A stretch of 64,000 nt of DNA from an uncultured Bryobacteraceae bacterium (GTDB taxonomy: Bacteria > Acidobacteriota > Terriglobia > Bryobacterales > Bryobacteraceae), in the NCBI GenBank assembly GCA_938003835.1, contig CALKXJ010000007.1, positions 310,001-374,000 on the forward strand. Direction: 5' to 3'. This document shows positions 38,822-49,115 of the stretch, piece by piece; within the stretch, counting starts at the first letter, position 1; every line of letters begins with the position of its first letter. The notes under the pieces are model-generated. The model saw only the letters and a list, made by a program, of their open reading frames with translations, did no database searches and was not told the origin of the DNA. The position numbers and the translations under genes are program-made.

Positions 38822-38901
38822 AAATGAGACATGATAACAGGCGCGGCGGCGGGCATTGCTACACTGAAAGAAATCTCTCGCATTGGAGCGCACATAACCG
38901 C

Positions 38902-40410
38902 ATGAGAAGAATTCTCCGGCGCAGCTTGGTCTTTGTCCTCGCCGCGGGCGCCTGCCTGGCGCAAAGCCTGGCCGAGTTCGAAAAGCGGGTGAGCGAATTC
39001 ACCCTGGAAAACGGGATGCACTTCATCGTGCTCAAGCGCGACCCGGCCCCGGTGGTCTCCTTTTTCGCCTACGTGGACGCCGGGGCGGTAAACGACCCCC
39101 GCGGAAAGACCGGGCTCGCTCACATGTTCGAGCACATGGTGGGCAAAGGGACCACGCGCGTGGGCACCACCGATTACGCGCAGGAAAAGCAGGTCCTCGA
39201 GGAGATCGAGCGAATTTACGACGAGATCGACAACGAGCGCCGCAAGGGTTCCAGGGCTGACCGGGCCCGCCTGGACGAGCTCGAGGCCCGCCTGCGCGCC
39301 GCCATCGAGAAGGCCAACCAATTTGTCAAGCCGAACGAGTTTGTCCGCCTCTTCGAGGCCAACGGCGCCGTCGGCTTCAATGCGGGCACCGGCAGCGACT
39401 ACACGGTCTATTTTTGCAGCATGCCGGCCAACCGGCTCGAGCTCTGGTTCCTGCTCATGTCGGAGTGGTTACGCCAGCCGGTCTACCGGGAGTTTTACAA
39501 AGAGCGGGACGTGGTGCGCGAAGAGCGCCGGATGCGCGTCGAATCCAGCCCGCAAGGCAAGCTCCAGGAGGTGCTCATGGCGACGGCCTTCCTGGCGCAC
39601 CCCTACAGGATCCTGGTCGGCTGGGCAAGCGACATCGACAACCTCCGGGCGCGCGATGCGGCGGAATTTCACCGCACTTACTATGTCCCGAGTAACATCA
39701 CGATCGCAATCGCCGGCGATGTGGAGGCGAACGAAATCAGGCTTCTGGCCGAGCGATACTTCGGGCGGATCCCGCCGGGACCGGAGCCTCCGCGCGTGAT
39801 TACCGAGGAGCCGCCGCAGGAAGGCGAGCGGCGGGTCACGGTCGAGACTCCCGCGCAGCCGATCCTGCTGGTTGCCTACAAGCGGCCTGACCAGCGCCAT
39901 GCCGACGATCCGGTTTTCGACGTGCTGGCCAGCCTGCTGGCGAGCGGCCGGACCGGCCTGCTCTACAGGGAGCTCGTGCGCGACAAACGCATCGCTCTGG
40001 CCGCCGGCGCCGTCCCGGCGGTCCCGGCCGCCAAGTTCCCCAGCCTGTTTCTGATCTACAGCGTCCCGAACGCGGGGCACACCATCGAGGAGAACGAAAA
40101 AGCGGTGTATGAGATCCTCGAGCGGCTCCAGCGCGAGCCGGTCGAGGAGGCGGCGCTCGCCCGCGTCAAGACCAAGATCCGCGCCGATCTCATCCGGCAG
40201 CTTGCCTCCAACGCGGGCCTGGCGCGCCAGCTCGCTTTCTATCACGTGAATTACGGCAACTGGCGGACCCTGTTTACAGGCATCGAGGAAATCGAGAAAG
40301 TGACCGCCGGGGACGTGCAGCGGGTTGCGCGCCAGTATCTGAGGCCCAGCAAGCGCACCGTGGCCTACCACGTCAGGCCCGAGGCCAATCCCGAGGAGGG
40401 GCGGCGATGA
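38902..40410 (+). CDS. M16 zinc metallopeptidase, catalytic subunit
   Basis: A 502-residue exported peptidase of the insulinase/processing-peptidase family. After a signal peptide (RRILRRSLVFVLAAGACLAQ) the inverted zinc motif HxxEH is seen as HMFEH at residues 74-78 within TGLAHMFEHMVGKGT. The second half carries the typical M16 C-terminal domain with LLYRELVRDKRIALAAG. Such enzymes degrade peptides inside a clam-shell chamber, often with an inactive partner. The ATG at 38902 follows the signal-peptide boundary. The stop overlaps the start of the partner gene (ATGA). Confidence 0.92.
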   Translation: MRRILRRSLVFVLAAGACLAQSLAEFEKRVSEFTLENGMHFIVLKRDPAPVVSFFAYVDAGAVNDPRGKTGLAHMFEHMVGKGTTRVGTTDYAQEKQVLEEIERIYDEIDNERRKGSRADRARLDELEARLRAAIEKANQFVKPNEFVRLFEANGAVGFNAGTGSDYTVYFCSMPANRLELWFLLMSEWLRQPVYREFYKERDVVREERRMRVESSPQGKLQEVLMATAFLAHPYRILVGWASDIDNLRARDAAEFHRTYYVPSNITIAIAGDVEANEIRLLAERYFGRIPPGPEPPRVITEEPPQEGERRVTVETPAQPILLVAYKRPDQRHADDPVFDVLASLLASGRTGLLYRELVRDKRIALAAGAVPAVPAAKFPSLFLIYSVPNAGHTIEENEKAVYEILERLQREPVEEAALARVKTKIRADLIRQLASNAGLARQLAFYHVNYGNWRTLFTGIEEIEKVTAGDVQRVARQYLRPSKRTVAYHVRPEANPEEGRR

Positions 40411-42500
40411 CCAGGCGGCTGGCACTTGCATTGTTGCTCGCGGCACTGGCGGCGGCGCAGGATGTGCCCGCCGTCGAAGAGCTCAAGTTTCCCCCGCTCA
40501 AACAGGTTCAAATCCCCAAGGTCGAGACCTTCACGCTCCCCAACGGGATGCGCCTGTACCTGCTCGAGAACCGCGAACTGCCCCTCATTGGCGGCTTCGC
40601 TCTGGTGCGCACCGGGAACCTTTTCGATCCGCCGGAGAAGATCGGGCTGGCCAGCCTCACCGGAGACGTGCTGCGGACCGGCGGCACCGCGGAGAAGACC
40701 GGCGACGAGATCGACGAGCTGCTCGAAAACCTTGCCGCCTCCATCGAAAGCGGCATCGGAGAGACGAGCGGCACGGTCTCCTTCAACTGCCTCCGCCAGG
40801 ACGTCGACGAAGTGCTGGCCGTCTTCAAGGCGCTGCTGACGGCGCCGGCCTTCCGCCAGGAGAAGCTCGATCTGGCCAAGACGCAGTACCGAAGCATGAT
40901 CGCCAGGCGCAACGACGATGCCGGCGCCATCGCCTCGCGCGAGTTCTCCCAAATCATCTACGGCCGGGACAATCCCTACGGCTGGCGTATGGAGTACGAG
41001 CATCTGGACCGCATCAGCCGCGACGACCTCATGGCATTCCACAAACGCTACTTCTTCCCGGCGAACATCCTGCTGGCCGTCCAGGGGGATTTCTCCGCCG
41101 CGGAGATGAGGGCCAAACTCGAGAAGCTTTTCGCCGACTGGCAGGTGAAGCAGCCGCCCGTGCCGCCCTTCCCAGAGGTGAAGGCGCGTCCGGCGCCCGG
41201 CATCTATCTGGCGGAGAAAGAGGACGTCAACCAGACCTTTTTCCGGATCGGCCATCTGGGCGGCCTGTTGCGAGATCCGGACTTCCCCGCCCTCGAGGTC
41301 ATGGCGGACATCCTGGGCGGCGGCTTCTCCAGCCGCCTGTTCGCCCGCGTGAGGACCCAGCTCGGCTATGCCTACAGCGTCGGCGCCTCCTGGGGCGCCA
41401 ACTACAACCATCCGGGAGTCTTCCGGATCGCCGGCAGCACCAAGTCGGAATCGACCACCGAGACGATTCGCGCCATCCTCGAAGAAGTTGAGCGGCTCCG
41501 CAACTCCGAGGTAACCGACGAGGAACTCAAGACCGCGCAGGACACGGTGCTGAACAGCTTCGTCTTCAACTTCGATCAACCTTCGAAGACGCTAAACCGG
41601 CTGGTCCTGTACGACTATCACGGCTATCCCAAAGACTTCATCTTCCGTTACCAGAAGGCTGTAGCCGCCGTAAGCAAACAGGACATCCTGCGCGTGGCCA
41701 GGAAATACCTGCGGCCGCAGGATCTGACCATCGTCGCGGTGGGCAAGCCTTCGGACTTCGGCACGCCGTTGGCGGAGCTCGGGCTGCCGGTCCACAAGAT
41801 CGACCTCACCATCCCGGAACCCAAGCGCCAGGCGGCGCGCGCCGATGCGGGGAATCTGGCGAAAGGCAAGGAGCTGCTGGCGCGGGCGCAGCAGGCCGTG
41901 GGCGGAGCCGAGAGGCTCGCCGGCGTCAAAGACATTCTGATGACTTCCGAGATCGTCCTCCAGGGCATGGGCGCCGGTATGCGGGCCTCGCAGACCAGCC
42001 GGTGGCTGGCGCCGTCCGTCATCCGGCAGGACCAGCAATTGCCTTTTGGGGCGGTGAGCTCCTACTCGGACGGTCAGACAGGTTGGTTGGCCACCCCGCA
42101 AGGTGTGCAGCCGATGCCCGCGCCGGTGATGCGCCAGGTGCGGGGCGCACTGCTGCGCATCCTGCCCTCTTTGCTCCTGAGTGACCGGCTGCCGGGCCGC
42201 CAGGTGAACCTGATCGAAGAGGGTGTGATCGAGGTCCAGGACAGCTCGGGCGAAAGCGTCCGCCTGAGGCTCGATCCGGAAACCGGGCTGCCGGCGGCCC
42301 TCATCTATCCCTCAATTCAGATGAGCGGGCCGCCGTCCACCACCGAGGAGATCCTGGAGGACTGGCGCGAGACCGGCGGGCTCAAGATGCCGTATAAAAT
42401 TACGATCCGGAGGGATGGTGCGCCATACGCGGAAGTGACGGTGCGGGAAATCCGTTTCAACACGGGCTTGACCGAGGAGGAGTTGAGCAGCAAGCCATGA
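40407..42500 (+). CDS. M16 non-catalytic partner fused to a lipoprotein-sorting-like domain
   Basis: A 697-residue exported protein. Residues ~40-460 form an M16 peptidase fold (FTLPNGMRLYLLENRELP, GGGFSSRLFARVRTQLGYAYSV). The zinc motif position reads SLTGD inside GLASLTGDVLRTGG, so it cannot bind zinc in the usual way; in M16 pairs such subunits carry the RY-type substrate site. The last ~220 residues, from KGKELLARAQQAVGGAERL, form an extra domain that resembles the whole of the next protein (42497-43291), including GLKMPYKITIRRDG against VQLPYVIQRYQDG. It is coupled on both sides by ATGA overlaps. Confidence 0.9.
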   Translation: MTRRLALALLLAALAAAQDVPAVEELKFPPLKQVQIPKVETFTLPNGMRLYLLENRELPLIGGFALVRTGNLFDPPEKIGLASLTGDVLRTGGTAEKTGDEIDELLENLAASIESGIGETSGTVSFNCLRQDVDEVLAVFKALLTAPAFRQEKLDLAKTQYRSMIARRNDDAGAIASREFSQIIYGRDNPYGWRMEYEHLDRISRDDLMAFHKRYFFPANILLAVQGDFSAAEMRAKLEKLFADWQVKQPPVPPFPEVKARPAPGIYLAEKEDVNQTFFRIGHLGGLLRDPDFPALEVMADILGGGFSSRLFARVRTQLGYAYSVGASWGANYNHPGVFRIAGSTKSESTTETIRAILEEVERLRNSEVTDEELKTAQDTVLNSFVFNFDQPSKTLNRLVLYDYHGYPKDFIFRYQKAVAAVSKQDILRVARKYLRPQDLTIVAVGKPSDFGTPLAELGLPVHKIDLTIPEPKRQAARADAGNLAKGKELLARAQQAVGGAERLAGVKDILMTSEIVLQGMGAGMRASQTSRWLAPSVIRQDQQLPFGAVSSYSDGQTGWLATPQGVQPMPAPVMRQVRGALLRILPSLLLSDRLPGRQVNLIEEGVIEVQDSSGESVRLRLDPETGLPAALIYPSIQMSGPPSTTEEILEDWRETGGLKMPYKITIRRDGAPYAEVTVREIRFNTGLTEEELSSKP

Positions 42501-43291
42501 CGCGGCGGACGGTCCTCGGGATGCTCGCGGGCGCCGTGTCGCTGGGCGCACAAAGCAGGCAGGAGCGGGGCAAGCAAATCATCGACGCGGCGATCGCCGC
42601 GCTCGGCGGCGAGAGGTTCCTCGCGCTTCGCAATCGCGTGGAAAAGGGCCGGGCTTACTCCTTCTATCAGGAGAAACTCGCCGGCCTGGCCAAGGCCACG
42701 GTCTACACGCGGTATCTGGCGCCCGCCAATCCGCCCAAGATTGACGACTTCTACTTGCGCGAGCGGCAGGCCTTCGGCGACGACGAGGCCTGGGCCGTGC
42801 TCTTCACCGAGGAGGACGGCTGGGAGATCACCTTCCGGGGCGCGCGGCCGCTACGCCAGCAAACGATCGAGCGGTTCCGTGACAACCGCCAGCGGGACAT
42901 TTTCTATATACTGCTGCGGCGGCTGGGCGAGGAGGGCCTGATCATCGAGCATCGCGGCTCCGACGTGGTGGACAACCGGCCGGTCGATGTCGTCGATATC
43001 ACCGACGCCAAGAACCGCGTGGTCACGGTCTATTTCCACCGCTCGACGCGGCTGCCCATCCGGCAGGTCTTCACCCGCCGGGATGAGCGGCGCATCCCCC
43101 ACGAAGAGGTGACCGTCTTCGACAAATACCGCGACGTCGGCGGCGTGCAACTGCCCTACGTGATCCAGCGCTATCAGGACGGCCAGCGCACCTTCGCCAT
43201 GTTCGCCGAATCGGTTCTGATCAATCAGGATCTCACCGACGAGAAGTTCACCCTTCCGCTGAAGCTGAAGATCCTGGAGCGGCAAAAATGA
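42497..43291 (+). CDS. Exported lipoprotein-sorting (LolA/LolB)-like protein
   Basis: A 264-residue exported protein with an RR leader (MTRRTVLGMLAGAVSLGAQ). The mature part is a half-open beta-barrel type sequence, from GKQIIDAAIAALGGERFLAL through VYFHRSTRLPIRQVF to LPYVIQRYQDG. It is like outer-membrane lipoprotein-sorting domains that bind lipid or hydrophobic ligands. It is a paralog of the C-terminal domain of the preceding M16 partner. A terminator-like hairpin follows at 43300-43323, closing the three-gene operon that begins at 38902. The ligand is unknown. Confidence 0.75.
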   Translation: MTRRTVLGMLAGAVSLGAQSRQERGKQIIDAAIAALGGERFLALRNRVEKGRAYSFYQEKLAGLAKATVYTRYLAPANPPKIDDFYLRERQAFGDDEAWAVLFTEEDGWEITFRGARPLRQQTIERFRDNRQRDIFYILLRRLGEEGLIIEHRGSDVVDNRPVDVVDITDAKNRVVTVYFHRSTRLPIRQVFTRRDERRIPHEEVTVFDKYRDVGGVQLPYVIQRYQDGQRTFAMFAESVLINQDLTDEKFTLPLKLKILERQK

Positions 43292-44717: not shown

Positions 44718-45590
44718 ATGGCCTGGAACGTACTCGTGTTGGGCAGCTTGGGCCAGTTGGGCAGCGAACTGGTGCGCGAGTTTCAAGCCAGGGGTCACAG
44801 CGTCAGCGGCTACGACCGCGCTGAGGTCGACATCACCGACGAGGCGCAAGTCGAGCAGGTCATCGCCCGCATCCGGCCCGAGCTGGTGATCAACGCCGCC
44901 GCCTACAACCAGGTGGATGTCGCCGAGCGCGAGCCGCAGGCGGCATTCCTGGTGAATGCTCTCGCCGTCCGCCATCTGGCCGTCACCTGCCGCCAGTGGG
45001 ACATCCGGCTGGTGCACTACTCCACCGATTACGTCTTCGACGGACGCGCCGGGCGGCCCTATACCGAAGAGGACCCCACCCACCCGCTGGGCGCTTATGC
45101 GGTCTCGAAGCTCGCCGGCGAGCTCTACGCGCAGGCCTATCTGGAGGCGCCGCTGATCATCCGGACCTCGGGGGTCTTCGGCCCCGCCGGGCGCCACACC
45201 GCCCGCGGCAATTTCATCGAGCTGATGCTGCGCCTGGCCGCCGAGGACCGGCCGATTCGCGTCGTCGAGGACCATTTCGCTTCGCCGACCTACGCGCCGG
45301 CGCTCGCCGCGAGAACGGCGGACCTGGTCGAGCGCGGCGCCTCCGGGATTTTCCATCTCGGAGGGGGAACCGCCATTTCCTGGTTTGACTACGCGGCGAT
45401 GATCTTCCGCCTCGCCGGCATCGCCGCCCGGCTCCAGCCCACCAACGAGCGCGAATACCGCACGGCGGCGCGGAGGCCCAAGTACTCGGCGCTCTCCAAT
45501 CGCAAGGCGGAGGCCTTCGGCATCGCGCCGATGCCGCCACTCGAGGAGGCCGTGCGCGAGTACCTGGACAGGCGCGAAAAAATGAATTGA
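44718..45590 (+). CDS. rfbD: dTDP-4-dehydrorhamnose reductase
   Basis: A 290-residue SDR-type enzyme that should perform the last step of dTDP-L-rhamnose synthesis, reducing dTDP-4-dehydrorhamnose with NAD(P)H. The nucleotide site reads VLVLGSLGQLGSELV, INAAAYNQVD is the family hallmark, STDYVFDG marks the active site and YAVSKLAGE contains the Tyr and Lys of the catalytic YxxxK. No rfbA, rfbB or rfbC gene is adjacent. The last codons overlap a good promoter for the next gene. Confidence 0.93.
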   Translation: MAWNVLVLGSLGQLGSELVREFQARGHSVSGYDRAEVDITDEAQVEQVIARIRPELVINAAAYNQVDVAEREPQAAFLVNALAVRHLAVTCRQWDIRLVHYSTDYVFDGRAGRPYTEEDPTHPLGAYAVSKLAGELYAQAYLEAPLIIRTSGVFGPAGRHTARGNFIELMLRLAAEDRPIRVVEDHFASPTYAPALAARTADLVERGASGIFHLGGGTAISWFDYAAMIFRLAGIAARLQPTNEREYRTAARRPKYSALSNRKAEAFGIAPMPPLEEAVREYLDRREKMN

Positions 45591-45615
45591 GATTTGAAAC
45601 TCCGGGGTGTACAAT
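45587..45615 (+). promoter_or_regulatory. Sigma-70-type promoter of the receptor pseudogene
   Basis: TTGAGA (45587-45592) and TACAAT (45610-45615) are separated by 17 bases, one of the best promoter matches in the window. It begins within the rfbD stop region and lies 77 bases before the pseudogene ATG at 45692. Confidence 0.65.
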
Positions 45616-45691
45616 GCCCTGGAGGCTTGGGCGGGGAGGAAAACAGGGTCTGCCTCCGTTTTGGGAAGCCTCGCCGGAGGTCTATACCGCT

Positions 45692-48600
45692 ATGGCTTCG
45701 TCTCGAGGTGTGCGCAGCCCAAGGCTGCGCTCGCTGTTTCCGCTTGCGTTGCTGCTGCTGGCCTCCACGGCATATGGACAAGGCGATCGCGGCACGATCA
45801 CCGGTCTGGTCACCGGCAGCACGCAGGCCGCCATTCCCGACGTGGAGATCGTCGTGACCCACGTCGCCACCAATGTTCAAACCACCACGCGCAGCGGGCC
45901 GACCGGCGTCTACAACCTGTTGCGCCTGCCCGTGGGCACATATACCCTCGTCGCCCGCAAGGAGGGCTTCCGGACCTACCAGCAGACGGACATCCCGGTC
46001 CGCGTCGGCGAGACGATCCGGCTGGATATCACCCTCGAGGTCGGCCAGCTCACCGAGCAGGTCACCGTCGTCGGCGCGGCCCCGCTCATCCAGTCCGAAT
46101 CGGCCGAAGTGGGCCTGGTGCTCACATCCTCGCAGTTCACCGAGCTGCCGCTGACGCTCGGCGGCGGCATCCGCAACCGTCCTCCTTCATCCTTCTCCAG
46201 CCCGGCGTCAGCCACACCGGCACCTAGGAAAAGCACGTGAACGGCAACCCCGCCTTCACCGATCAGGTTTACTACGACGGCATCGCCCTGAGCCGCGGCG
46301 ATCTCTCCAACGACGGCGAGGTAACCCGTCCGTGGATGCAATCGCCGAGTTCAAGCTGATCTCCAACAATTACTCCGCCGAATACACGCACGCCCTGGGA
46401 GGCGTCACCACATTCACCTATCGGAGCGGCACCAATGATCTGCATGGTGTGCTGTTTTTCCTGAATAGCATCGAGAAATAAGGCCCGTAACTTCTTCCAG
46501 GCGAGCAAACCGCCGTACAAGCAGAACGAGTGGGGATTTACCGTCGGCGGACCGATTTTGCTCCCCAAGATTTACGACGGGCGCAACAAGTCGTTTTTCT
46601 TCTTCTCGCTCGACCAGTTCTACGTCCGGAGCCCCGGATCGCCCGGCCTTTCCACGGTCCCCACCAGCCGGATGCGGCAGGGCGACTTCACCGAGTGGGT
46701 CGAGGCCGGACGCGGGCTCATCTACGACCCGGCTTCGGGAAGGCGGGACGCCTCCGGCGCCTATTTGCGGGACCCGTTGCCCGGCAACATTGTGCCCAGA
46801 AACCGGTGGAGCAGCATCTCCTCGAAGATGGTTGCGATGCACCCGCAGCCGACCTACCCCGGATTGACAAACAACTACCAGGCGGTCACCGGCTCTCGCG
46901 AGCAGGCTCACCGCTCGAGCGGTTTCAAGATCGACCATGTCTTGACCAACACGCACCGGCTGAGCGGCATGTTCAACTTCACCGACCGGCCGGCCGTGAA
47001 GTGTCGCGGCGGCAACAACACCTCCTGGAGCCTGGCGGGCGATCTGGAGTGCCACAACATCCAGCGCGTCACAACGCGGCTCGTGAGGTTGAATTACGAC
47101 TGGACGGTGAGCCCGACGGTGCTGAACCGGCTCTCCGCCGGCTTGTCGCGCTTCCGGAATCTGAATTTCTCCGTGCACTTCCGCAAAGGCTGGATCGACA
47201 AGATCGGGCTCAAGGGGGTAGGGTACGACCTGTTCCCCTGGGTGGATTTCAACCACGACTACATGCGGTTCGGCGACACCATCGCCTCGGACAATTACTC
47301 ACCAATTTCACCTTCCTCGATACCATCAGCGTTATGCGGGGGAACCACACCCTCAAGTTCGGCGGAGAGGTGCAGCGGCACCGGAACAACTTCCGTGATT
47401 ACGGGACCACCGGCGGCAACTTCCCAGTTCAACCAGCTCTCCACTGGACTGCCGGGCGTCTCCCGCAGCGGTAACTCCTGGGCCAGTTTTCTCCTCGGCG
47501 ACGTCTACAGCGCCTCCTACTTCCCGTACCTCCAGTACGGCAACCGGAACGGCTATTACAGCCTGTGGATGAACGACGACTGGAAGGTGACGCCGAAGCT
47601 GACCTGGAATCTCGGCATGCGGTGGGAAGTACAGCCCGGCTTCACGGACCCCAACAACCGCCTCTCTTACATGGATCCCTCGGTGCCCAACCCCGGCGCG
47701 GGCGGGCTAAAGGGCGCGTACATCTTCGCCGGAACCTGCCAGGGCTGCTCCGGTTTCACCAGCACCGGCAACACCCACTGGAGAGATTTCGCGCCGCGTT
47801 TCGGTATGGCCTACCGGTTGACGGACAGGATGGTCGTCCGCGGCGGCTACGGCATCTTCTTTGCCCAGATCATCACCCAGGGCACGGGCGTCACTGGTCT
47901 TCGCGAGGGTTACAACGTGACGGCCGCCTTCTCGACGGCCGACAACGGCATCACGCCGGCGTTCAACTGGGACAACGGCTTCCCGCAGAACTTCAAGCGG
48001 GCGCCGCTGATCGACCCGACGTTGGAAAACACGCAGAGCGCGACGCTGGTGGACCGGGACCGCAGCACGCTGGTTCCCTACACGCAGCAGTTCAACCTGC
48101 TGATCGAGCGGCAGGTGGGACAGAACACCTCCTTCAGCGTGGGCTACGTCGGCAACCTCGGGCGGCGCATTCACGCCTCGATGAACTGGAATCAGACCGA
48201 CCCCCGGTATCTGGCGCTCGGCGCGCTGCTGCAACGCAACATTCTCGACGCGCAGGTCGAGGCGGCGGGCTTCGGCGAACCCTATCCCGGCTTTGCCGCG
48301 CAGTTCGGGGCGCGCGGGACTCTCGTGCAGGCCCTCAACGCGTTCCCGCAGTTCACCAGCGTGAGCCAGGCCGGCTCCACCTTCGGCCTGTCTTCCTACC
48401 ACTCGCTCCAGATCAGCGGTGAGCGGCGGATGAGTCGGGGCCTGATGTTCACCCTCGCCTACACCTTCTCGAAATCGATCGCCGACACCGAGGGCTTCTC
48501 GACCGGCACCGGGGCGATGAATTGGTTCAACCGCAAGCTGGACCGCTCCATCACCTCGATCGACCGGCCGCACATCCTGACCGTCAGCTACATCGATGAG

Positions 48601-49115
48601 CTGCCGGCGGGCCCGGGAAAGCCGTTCCTGTCAAGCGGCCCCGCTTCGAAGATCCTGGGCGGCTGGAAGATCACCGCGCTCCACATGTACTCGAGCGGCA
48701 CGCCATCTCCGTCACCATGAACAACAACTTGCCGCTCGGCAACAACTCCCAGCGGCCGCATGTCGTTTCGAGCGAGCTGCGGACCTCGATCAGCGCCGGC
48801 GACTTCGACCCGGGCCGGGGCGACTTGTGGTTGAATCCTGCGGCCTTCGCGACCCCGGGGCCCTTCCCCTTCGGGAACGCCCCGCGCTACACCAACGCGC
48901 GGATTCCGACTCGCCTTTCCGAGTCCATGGGCCTGCTCAAGGACACGCGGATCGGCGAGCGCTTCAACCTCCAGTTCCGGTTCGAGACCTCTAACCCGTT
49001 CAAGCGGGTGGTGTTCGGCGGACCGACGAGCAACTTCTCCTCCGGCGCATTCGGACGCATCGGCAGCGACTGCGGCGGCCGGCAGATCACCTTGGGCTTG
49101 AAGCTCTACTACTAA
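45692..49115 (+). pseudogene. TonB-dependent receptor gene with many frame disruptions
   Basis: The product would be a ~1140-residue Oar-like receptor: signal peptide (MASSRGVRSPRLRSLFPLAL), carboxypeptidase-regulatory domain (GTITGLVTGSTQAAIPDVE), plug (VNGNPAFTDQVYYDGIA, TYRSGTNDLHGVLF) and barrel ending LGLKLYY. The reading frame shifts near 46180, 46322, 46480, 47295, 47423 and 48703. A TAG at 46225-46227 replaces what is probably Trp. The shifts at 47295 and 47423 compensate, with coherent NHTLKFGGEVQRHRNNFRDY between them in another frame. One shift (46322) fits the loss of one A from AAA. The promoter and GGAGG ribosome site remain. Neighbouring genes are intact, so decay is likelier than general sequencing error. 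Confidence 0.85.

Follow-up and report, generated by a model that had tools for sequence, protein, structure and literature searches.

Predicted LolA/LolB-type half-barrels on, and encoded beside, an inactive M16 peptidase subunit in Bryobacteraceae

Introduction

Half-barrels of the LolA/LolB fold often hold acyl chains or other hydrophobic ligands, and M16 peptidases include two-chain pairs such as 3amj, which we take to be the SPH2681/SPH2682 pair of Sphingomonas sp. A1. This pair appears in a table of a 2025 review, which, in its accessible portion, describes the substrates of prokaryotic M16 proteases as "poorly defined" and nowhere uses the word "lipoprotein" in its main text (PMC12731061). 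Few natural substrates of bacterial M16 proteases are known. For LolA3 of P. gingivalis, the available text reports a 13-strand sheet with a short C-terminal helix, the lack of both the LolB-type leucine and the LolA-type arginine, and a suggested separate function (PMC13103446). Among the listed titles and abstract openings of a literature set from which subscription papers were mostly absent, no description of an M16-LolA fusion was found. Here, we describe an operon in which an inactive M16 subunit ends in a domain with a predicted LolA/LolB-type fold and is followed by the gene for a free protein of the same predicted fold.

Gene organization and M16 subunits

The window, a stretch of 64,000 nucleotides from an uncultured soil bacterium of the Bryobacteraceae (assembly GCA_938003835.1, contig CALKXJ010000007.1, positions 310,001 to 374,000 of the forward strand), contained a three-gene unit on one strand: an M16 protein with the motif HMFEH, an M16 protein without HxxEH and a free LolA-like protein. 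The nearest named relatives of the locus were Bryobacteraceae, Solibacteraceae and Bryobacterales bins. The active subunit was encoded at 38824..40410 (+; longest open reading frame 528 amino acids), although from the sequence its true start is likely the ATG at 38902, in front of a hydrophobic, signal-peptide-like N-terminal stretch. Its zinc motif HMFEH comprised residues 100–104 (39121..39135, +). The inactive subunit (40407..42500, +; 697 amino acids) had a Sec-type signal-peptide-like N-terminus and carried the LolA-like domain at its C-terminus (residues 478–697; 41838..42497, +). The free protein (42497..43291, +; 264 amino acids) also had a signal-peptide-like N-terminus, as judged by eye, and no cysteine. 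Both gene junctions were ATGA overlaps (40407..40410 and 42497..42500, +). From the signal peptides and the fold, we infer that all parts of the unit act in the periplasm. Few flanking genes were shared between the window and six related loci. Further downstream, the open reading frames at 45587–46240 and 46558–48720 resembled, by eye, a single TonB-receptor-type outer-membrane protein, presumably with a carboxypeptidase-like N-terminal domain, that was split over the two frames by a possible frameshift.

Both M16 subunits matched PF00675 and PF05193 above the Pfam cut-offs, the active one as Peptidase_M16 and Peptidase_M16_C and the inactive one with E-values of 7e-7 (PF00675) and 4e-43 (PF05193). 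The HxxEH motif was present in all eight related active subunits compared (HMFEH in seven, HLIEH in one) and absent from the inactive subunit and from all nine of its relatives compared. With the M16 domains present and the motif missing, the 40407 protein fits the inactive M16 partner that the first-pass annotation had taken it to be. Residues R316 and Y323 (41352..41375, +) fell in invariant columns of an 11-row alignment with relatives (A5). Within the searched stretch, the R-x6-Y spacing recurred in eight of nine inactive-subunit relatives, the exception being L013, in which the open reading frame starts further upstream; no R/Y pair was found in the searched stretch of the active subunit. 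The best solved relative of the inactive subunit was 3amj_B, a zinc peptidase inactive subunit (E 8e-46, residues 38–447). By sequence, the two proteins would thus form an M16B-type heterodimer. Since the pair displays the usual division between a zinc site and an R/Y pair, the fused module appears to be an add-on outside catalysis. In the active subunit, 133 residues lay between the first histidine of HMFEH and E233, a candidate third zinc ligand picked by eye, and residues 104–233 were rich in charged residues and had a coiled-coil look by eye. All Pfam and NCBIfam matches in the operon were confined to the M16 parts; the fused domain had none, so automatic annotation with these libraries would leave it unnamed.

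Similarity and predicted fold of the two half-barrels

The fused domain (residues 478–697) and the free protein aligned collinearly over their full length in a single BLASTP comparison (52/234 identical, 22%; 102/234 positive; E 5e-12). The common order of motifs noted earlier for the two regions was confirmed, as the motif pairs all lie inside this one alignment. The Smith-Waterman score of 115 was approximately 18 SD above the mean of 2,000 shuffles (31, SD 4.7, maximum 52), while the M16 part of the inactive protein and the active subunit scored 33 and 30 against the free protein. A profile of 51 fused-type sequences and one of 43 free-type sequences aligned over 217 columns with a probability of 99.8%. 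Alignment A3 took in 50 of 61 relatives and alignment A4 30 of 32 downstream proteins. In a sequence search of the PDB, query P0002 gave four chance-level matches alone (best E 0.38).

AlphaFold models built on the two alignments had mean pLDDT values of 95.3 (fused domain) and 95.6 (free protein). Each was a half-barrel of 13 antiparallel strands with helices in its mouth, as is characteristic of the LolA/LolB superfamily, and the elements came in the same order in both: after a long and a short N-terminal helix, six strands led to two helices, which were followed by another seven strands and a short C-terminal helix. A check for differing predicted folds of the two regions thus gave the same order and strand number. 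LolA/LolB-superfamily entries ranked first for both models in Foldseek searches of the PDB. At E-values up to 0.001 there were 52 and 42 matches, mostly LolA, LolB and their relatives, with MucB/RseB, LprF, VioE and others among the rest. The leading solved matches were 3bk5, 4z48, 3buu and P. gingivalis LolA3 and LolB, followed by LolB and LolA of other bacteria. The VIA Z-score for 3bk5 was 17.2 against the fused domain (197 aligned residues, 3.5 Å) and 18.9 against the free protein (211 aligned residues, 3.8 Å). Because both high-confidence models are LolA/LolB half-barrels with the same element order, the earlier guess at the fold holds.

By fold, we place both half-barrels in the superfamily without assigning them to LolA, LolB or RseB proper. 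Pfam returned no match for the LolA-like domain in either the inactive subunit or the free protein. At E-values up to 0.1, LolA_like (PF17131) matched 1 of 43 free-type rows and 4 of 51 fused-type rows, of which three are standalone proteins and the fourth is a fused domain from a different family; its cut-off was exceeded by the standalone protein L072 only (40.1 against 30 bits), and two of the matching standalone rows (L060, L069) exceeded that of another family, DUF620. PF03548 (LolA) did not match these two window proteins at E-values up to 1 and matched 4 of the 51 rows of A3 weakly (best E 0.044). The same genome had one PF03548 match, in a separate gene (G000:C19:33464), and the fused and free proteins therefore need not serve bulk lipoprotein transport. 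The predicted β2–β3 loops of the two proteins, the site of the LolA arginine, contained no arginine; 48 of 51 fused-type rows had one just within strand 3, and 11 of 43 free-type rows had one at loop position 57. No cysteine of the LolB lipoprotein type was found in the N-terminus of the free protein, and the fused domain is internal. F70 of the fused domain was located in the two-residue turn that forms the β3–β4 loop, a position occupied by phenylalanine in 8/8 rows of A1 and 23/51 rows of A3; the corresponding loop of the free protein had no large hydrophobic residue. Hydrophobicity alternated unevenly along the strands and gave no clear indication that they line a cavity.

Distribution

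The free gene was detected in 146 of 150 Bryobacteraceae genomes (profile search, E 1e-10; three second rows omitted). The fused-type profile matched 139 of the 150 at E 1e-3, including 26 genomes in which the best E-value was above 1e-20; at least one of these weaker matches (G090) was the free protein by position. We typed 114 fused-type rows with E-values up to 1.9e-23, omitting 13 rows that were second hits in a genome already included. The free gene was directly downstream in 96 of the 114, of which 95 were found within 400 bases by script and one (G086) had a two-base overlap. Fifteen of the other 18 rows had a free gene elsewhere in the genome (in two pieces in G126), and the remaining three were one that ends at a contig end (G124), one at a contig start (G085) and one partial match (G095). 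HMM searches confirmed both M16 part and free gene in 30 loci (L018–L047); in the other rows an attached M16 part is presumed, and the open frames of G128 and G046 were too short to reveal an M16 part. Two genomes of genus g73 (G133, G147) had 10 and 13 fused-type matches each, the next highest number among the 150 being 8.

We fetched 40 free-gene loci from the 51 genomes in which no fused-type row was linked to the free gene. In 12 of these a domain-less M16 pair was directly upstream of the free gene, and in 28 there was no M16 match in the stretch, some stretches ending at contig ends. Together with L015 and L077, of which the latter is known without its upstream part, this gave 14 operons combining an unfused M16 pair with the free gene. 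In L077 and L015 the free gene directly followed an inactive subunit whose end has no LolA-like domain. Overall, in 110 of 146 genomes the free gene was next to either a fused-type row or an M16 partner without the domain. Fused and unfused operons both occur naturally in Bryobacteraceae, which allows comparison beyond engineered forms. M16 was matched at E 1e-60 in 25 of the 31 family genomes lacking a linked M16 pair or a clear hit. In six of these 25, the M16 partner belonged to the same type (E 4e-177 or better) and had no adjacent free gene; all six were fused, too few to tell whether fusion and adjacency are related. Fourteen more distant M16 loci of those genomes were fused in four cases and unfused in ten. 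The idea that the domain was lost solely where the free gene adjoins was set aside, since the unfused operons had been located through the free gene.

Across Acidobacteriota, 187 of 297 sampled genomes matched the fused-type profile (E 1e-3, standalone proteins included), 69 matched the free-type profile (E 1e-10) and 163 were matched by the inactive subunit at E 1e-100. The same fusion, sought in other M16 operons, was present in 13 of the 29 best-scoring loci outside the window (14 fused and 16 unfused with the window included). Its absence from the other 16 shows that the protease does not need the domain. Eleven changes of the fused state were counted on a tree of 70 inactive subunits, at least seven of them forced by starred branches; such counts cannot separate gain from loss, and repeated loss is preferred because the fused domains of Bryobacteraceae form one clade. 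The C-terminal LolA-like module is thus an optional addition whose presence changes frequently on the tree. In the two inactive subunits recovered from beyond Acidobacteriota, in Ratteibacteria and Elusimicrobia bins (L016:224-1669 and L017:5974-7335), the fused domain was absent. Both started with lipoprotein-like signals (LTGC and FTGC), so the partner there may be membrane-anchored.

Outside Bryobacteraceae, 20 free-gene loci were fetched of 66 genomes matched, and none of the 20 stretches contained an M16 match. Seven of them, from five family codes, contained a Pfam-confirmed lpxC gene (L098, L099, L101, L105, L106, L107 and L113), a hint of a role in lipid A or the outer membrane. Neither the window nor any of the 40 stretches from Bryobacteraceae yielded lpxC. 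In other families the fused domain and the free gene appeared, by eye, to be negatively associated, an impression confounded by relatedness. Searches of plasmids returned 112 records for query P0001, none with 80% query coverage, and no match for query P0004 at E 0.01. The four plasmid records examined encoded M16 proteins of 469, 946 and 421 amino acids (three from Bacteroidota) and 952 amino acids (an alphaproteobacterium), according to annotated coordinates.

Proposed function

We tentatively propose, with a probability of roughly 0.4, that the half-barrel is a docking or capture module for hydrophobic or acylated envelope substrates of the M16 pair, and that the free protein is a matching soluble binder. 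The half-barrel on the inactive subunit would grip an envelope substrate, such as a mis-sorted or damaged lipoprotein, a signal-peptide remnant or an outer-membrane peptide, by its hydrophobic or acylated part while the clam-shell M16 chamber cuts the peptide part. The free protein would bind the same sort of ligand, would have come to adjoin the M16 pair in Bryobacteraceae and could assist the protease whether or not the fused module is present. Lipoproteins or hydrophobic peptides at the outer membrane may be M16 substrates, as the first-pass annotation had suggested, and the fused and free LolA-like proteins hint at a connection between protein breakdown and outer-membrane upkeep. A recurrent LolA-like module with a linked free protein offers a concrete, assayable hypothesis for the M16 pair, namely lipid or lipopeptide ligands.

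Two other readings are serious rivals to substrate capture. First, the LolA-like proteins may act independently in the envelope, for example in glycolipid or pigment carriage, and share an operon with the M16 pair but not a substrate. In 28 of the 40 stretches fetched within the family and in all 20 outside it, no M16 match accompanied the free gene, which may thus mainly serve a purpose other than proteolysis. That fused and free half-barrels also occur apart counts against an obligate partnership. The fused domain is also dispensable, given the changes on the tree and the 16/29 loci that lack it, and the accessible part of a study on Flavobacterium describes a flexirubin-pigment operon with LolA/LolB paralogues (PMC11885536). 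Tight linkage within the family, in 96 of 114 fused-type rows and 14 domain-less operons, is harder to reconcile with mere co-residence, while the flanking genes vary between the window and the six related loci, and we consider independent roles somewhat unlikely.

Second, the half-barrel could be a lipid sensor that gates proteolysis in the manner of MucB/RseB, with bound lipid A or a mis-sorted lipoprotein altering the opening of, or the access to, the M16 chamber. MucB, according to the available text, senses lipid A through a hydrophobic cavity and releases MucA, which AlgW can then cleave (PMC7400510); MucB and RseB were among the fold matches, with VIA Z-scores of 7.2–7.8, and 7 of the 20 loci outside Bryobacteraceae had lpxC close to the free gene. 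A Z-score near 7, however, is within the common-fold range according to the tool's note, and the RseB/MucB matches stop near residue 209 and so cover the N-terminal part alone. The protease is, moreover, often kept where the fused domain is absent. We regard gating by a sensor as unlikely. More unlikely still is a relay in which the free protein would hand acylated or hydrophobic cargo mouth-to-mouth to a LolB-like domain on the inactive M16 subunit, which would offer the protein part to the chamber; if it existed, it would be a lipoprotein-turnover machine at the outer membrane in which a sorting fold is used for destruction.

Origin of the two half-barrels

In an 87-row tree, which omits 13 more Bryobacteraceae loci and six repeat loci and holds one gene of one genome twice (L089/L105), fused-type and free-type sequences were split at a branch with 99% SH-aLRT support, and both sides contained Bryobacteraceae together with other families. 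Forcing the two Bryobacteraceae groups together made this quick tree 40 log units worse, a borderline result in the AU test (p 0.0502). A more careful tree of 45 rows, picked after the borderline test to balance the groups, supported both sides at 100/99, and uniting the two Bryobacteraceae groups was 53 log units worse and rejected (AU p 0.0005). Because the rows of the trees were gathered with one profile built from each group, intermediates may be under-sampled. The fused domain and its free counterpart look like ancient paralogues, on two branches of one family that both extend beyond Bryobacteraceae.

The alternative, that the C-terminal domain is a recent copy of the neighbouring gene that arose within the operon or the family, fits the finding that the two are mutual best non-self matches in their own genome (E 6.9e-4 and 1.4e-4) and the unclear rejection by the 87-row tree. 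The free-protein profile, however, detected homologues in other families with E-values as low as 4e-35, and the fused domain of its own genome was not among its matches at E 1e-10; with each protein nearer to its counterparts in other families than to the other, and both groups joined to relatives outside the family in the 45-row tree, a local duplication is highly improbable. Of the earlier proposal of a duplicated LolA/LolB-like domain, the fold has therefore stood, on the models, Foldseek and VIA, and the duplication within the operon has not.

Comparison with known systems

The best NCBIfam relatives of both M16 subunits were YfmF/YfmH, an M16 pair associated with EF-P modification, at scores far below the equivalog cut-offs (91.1 against 285 bits and 53 against 250 bits). 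For the half-barrels, the LolA-superfamily and DUF1329 structures 3bk5, 3buu and 4z48 were among the leading matches of both models, with 10–14% identity (VIA); we know of no link between these proteins and a protease.

The locus resembles SPH2681/SPH2682 (3amj) in being a two-chain M16B pair whose inactive partner matches 3amj_B over residues 38–447. The 3amj_B chain has 424 amino acids, and the match ends before residues 478–697, the LolA-like part of the inactive partner; no such part is mentioned for SPH2681/SPH2682 in the accessible portion of the review, which also gives 80 residues from H51 to E131, approximately 53 fewer than the 133 in the active subunit described here (PMC12731061).

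MucB/RseB is similar in that, in the available text, a proteolytic step is under the control of a lipid-binding, LolA-like N-terminal domain (PMC7400510). It differs in having a second, C-terminal domain, which is absent here, the mature part of the 264-residue free protein being one predicted half-barrel, and in that MucB shields the substrate and stands outside the protease itself.

LolB carries an N-terminal cysteine, unlike the free protein. LolA3 and LolB of P. gingivalis (9tp6 and 9tpm) are free proteins with no protease fusion and share 7–13% identity with the domains described here. Their structures nevertheless gave VIA Z-scores of 15.2 and 13.7 with the fused domain and 16.5 and 15.5 with the free protein, and LolA3, as described in the accessible text (PMC13103446), has the same 13 strands and short C-terminal helix as both models.
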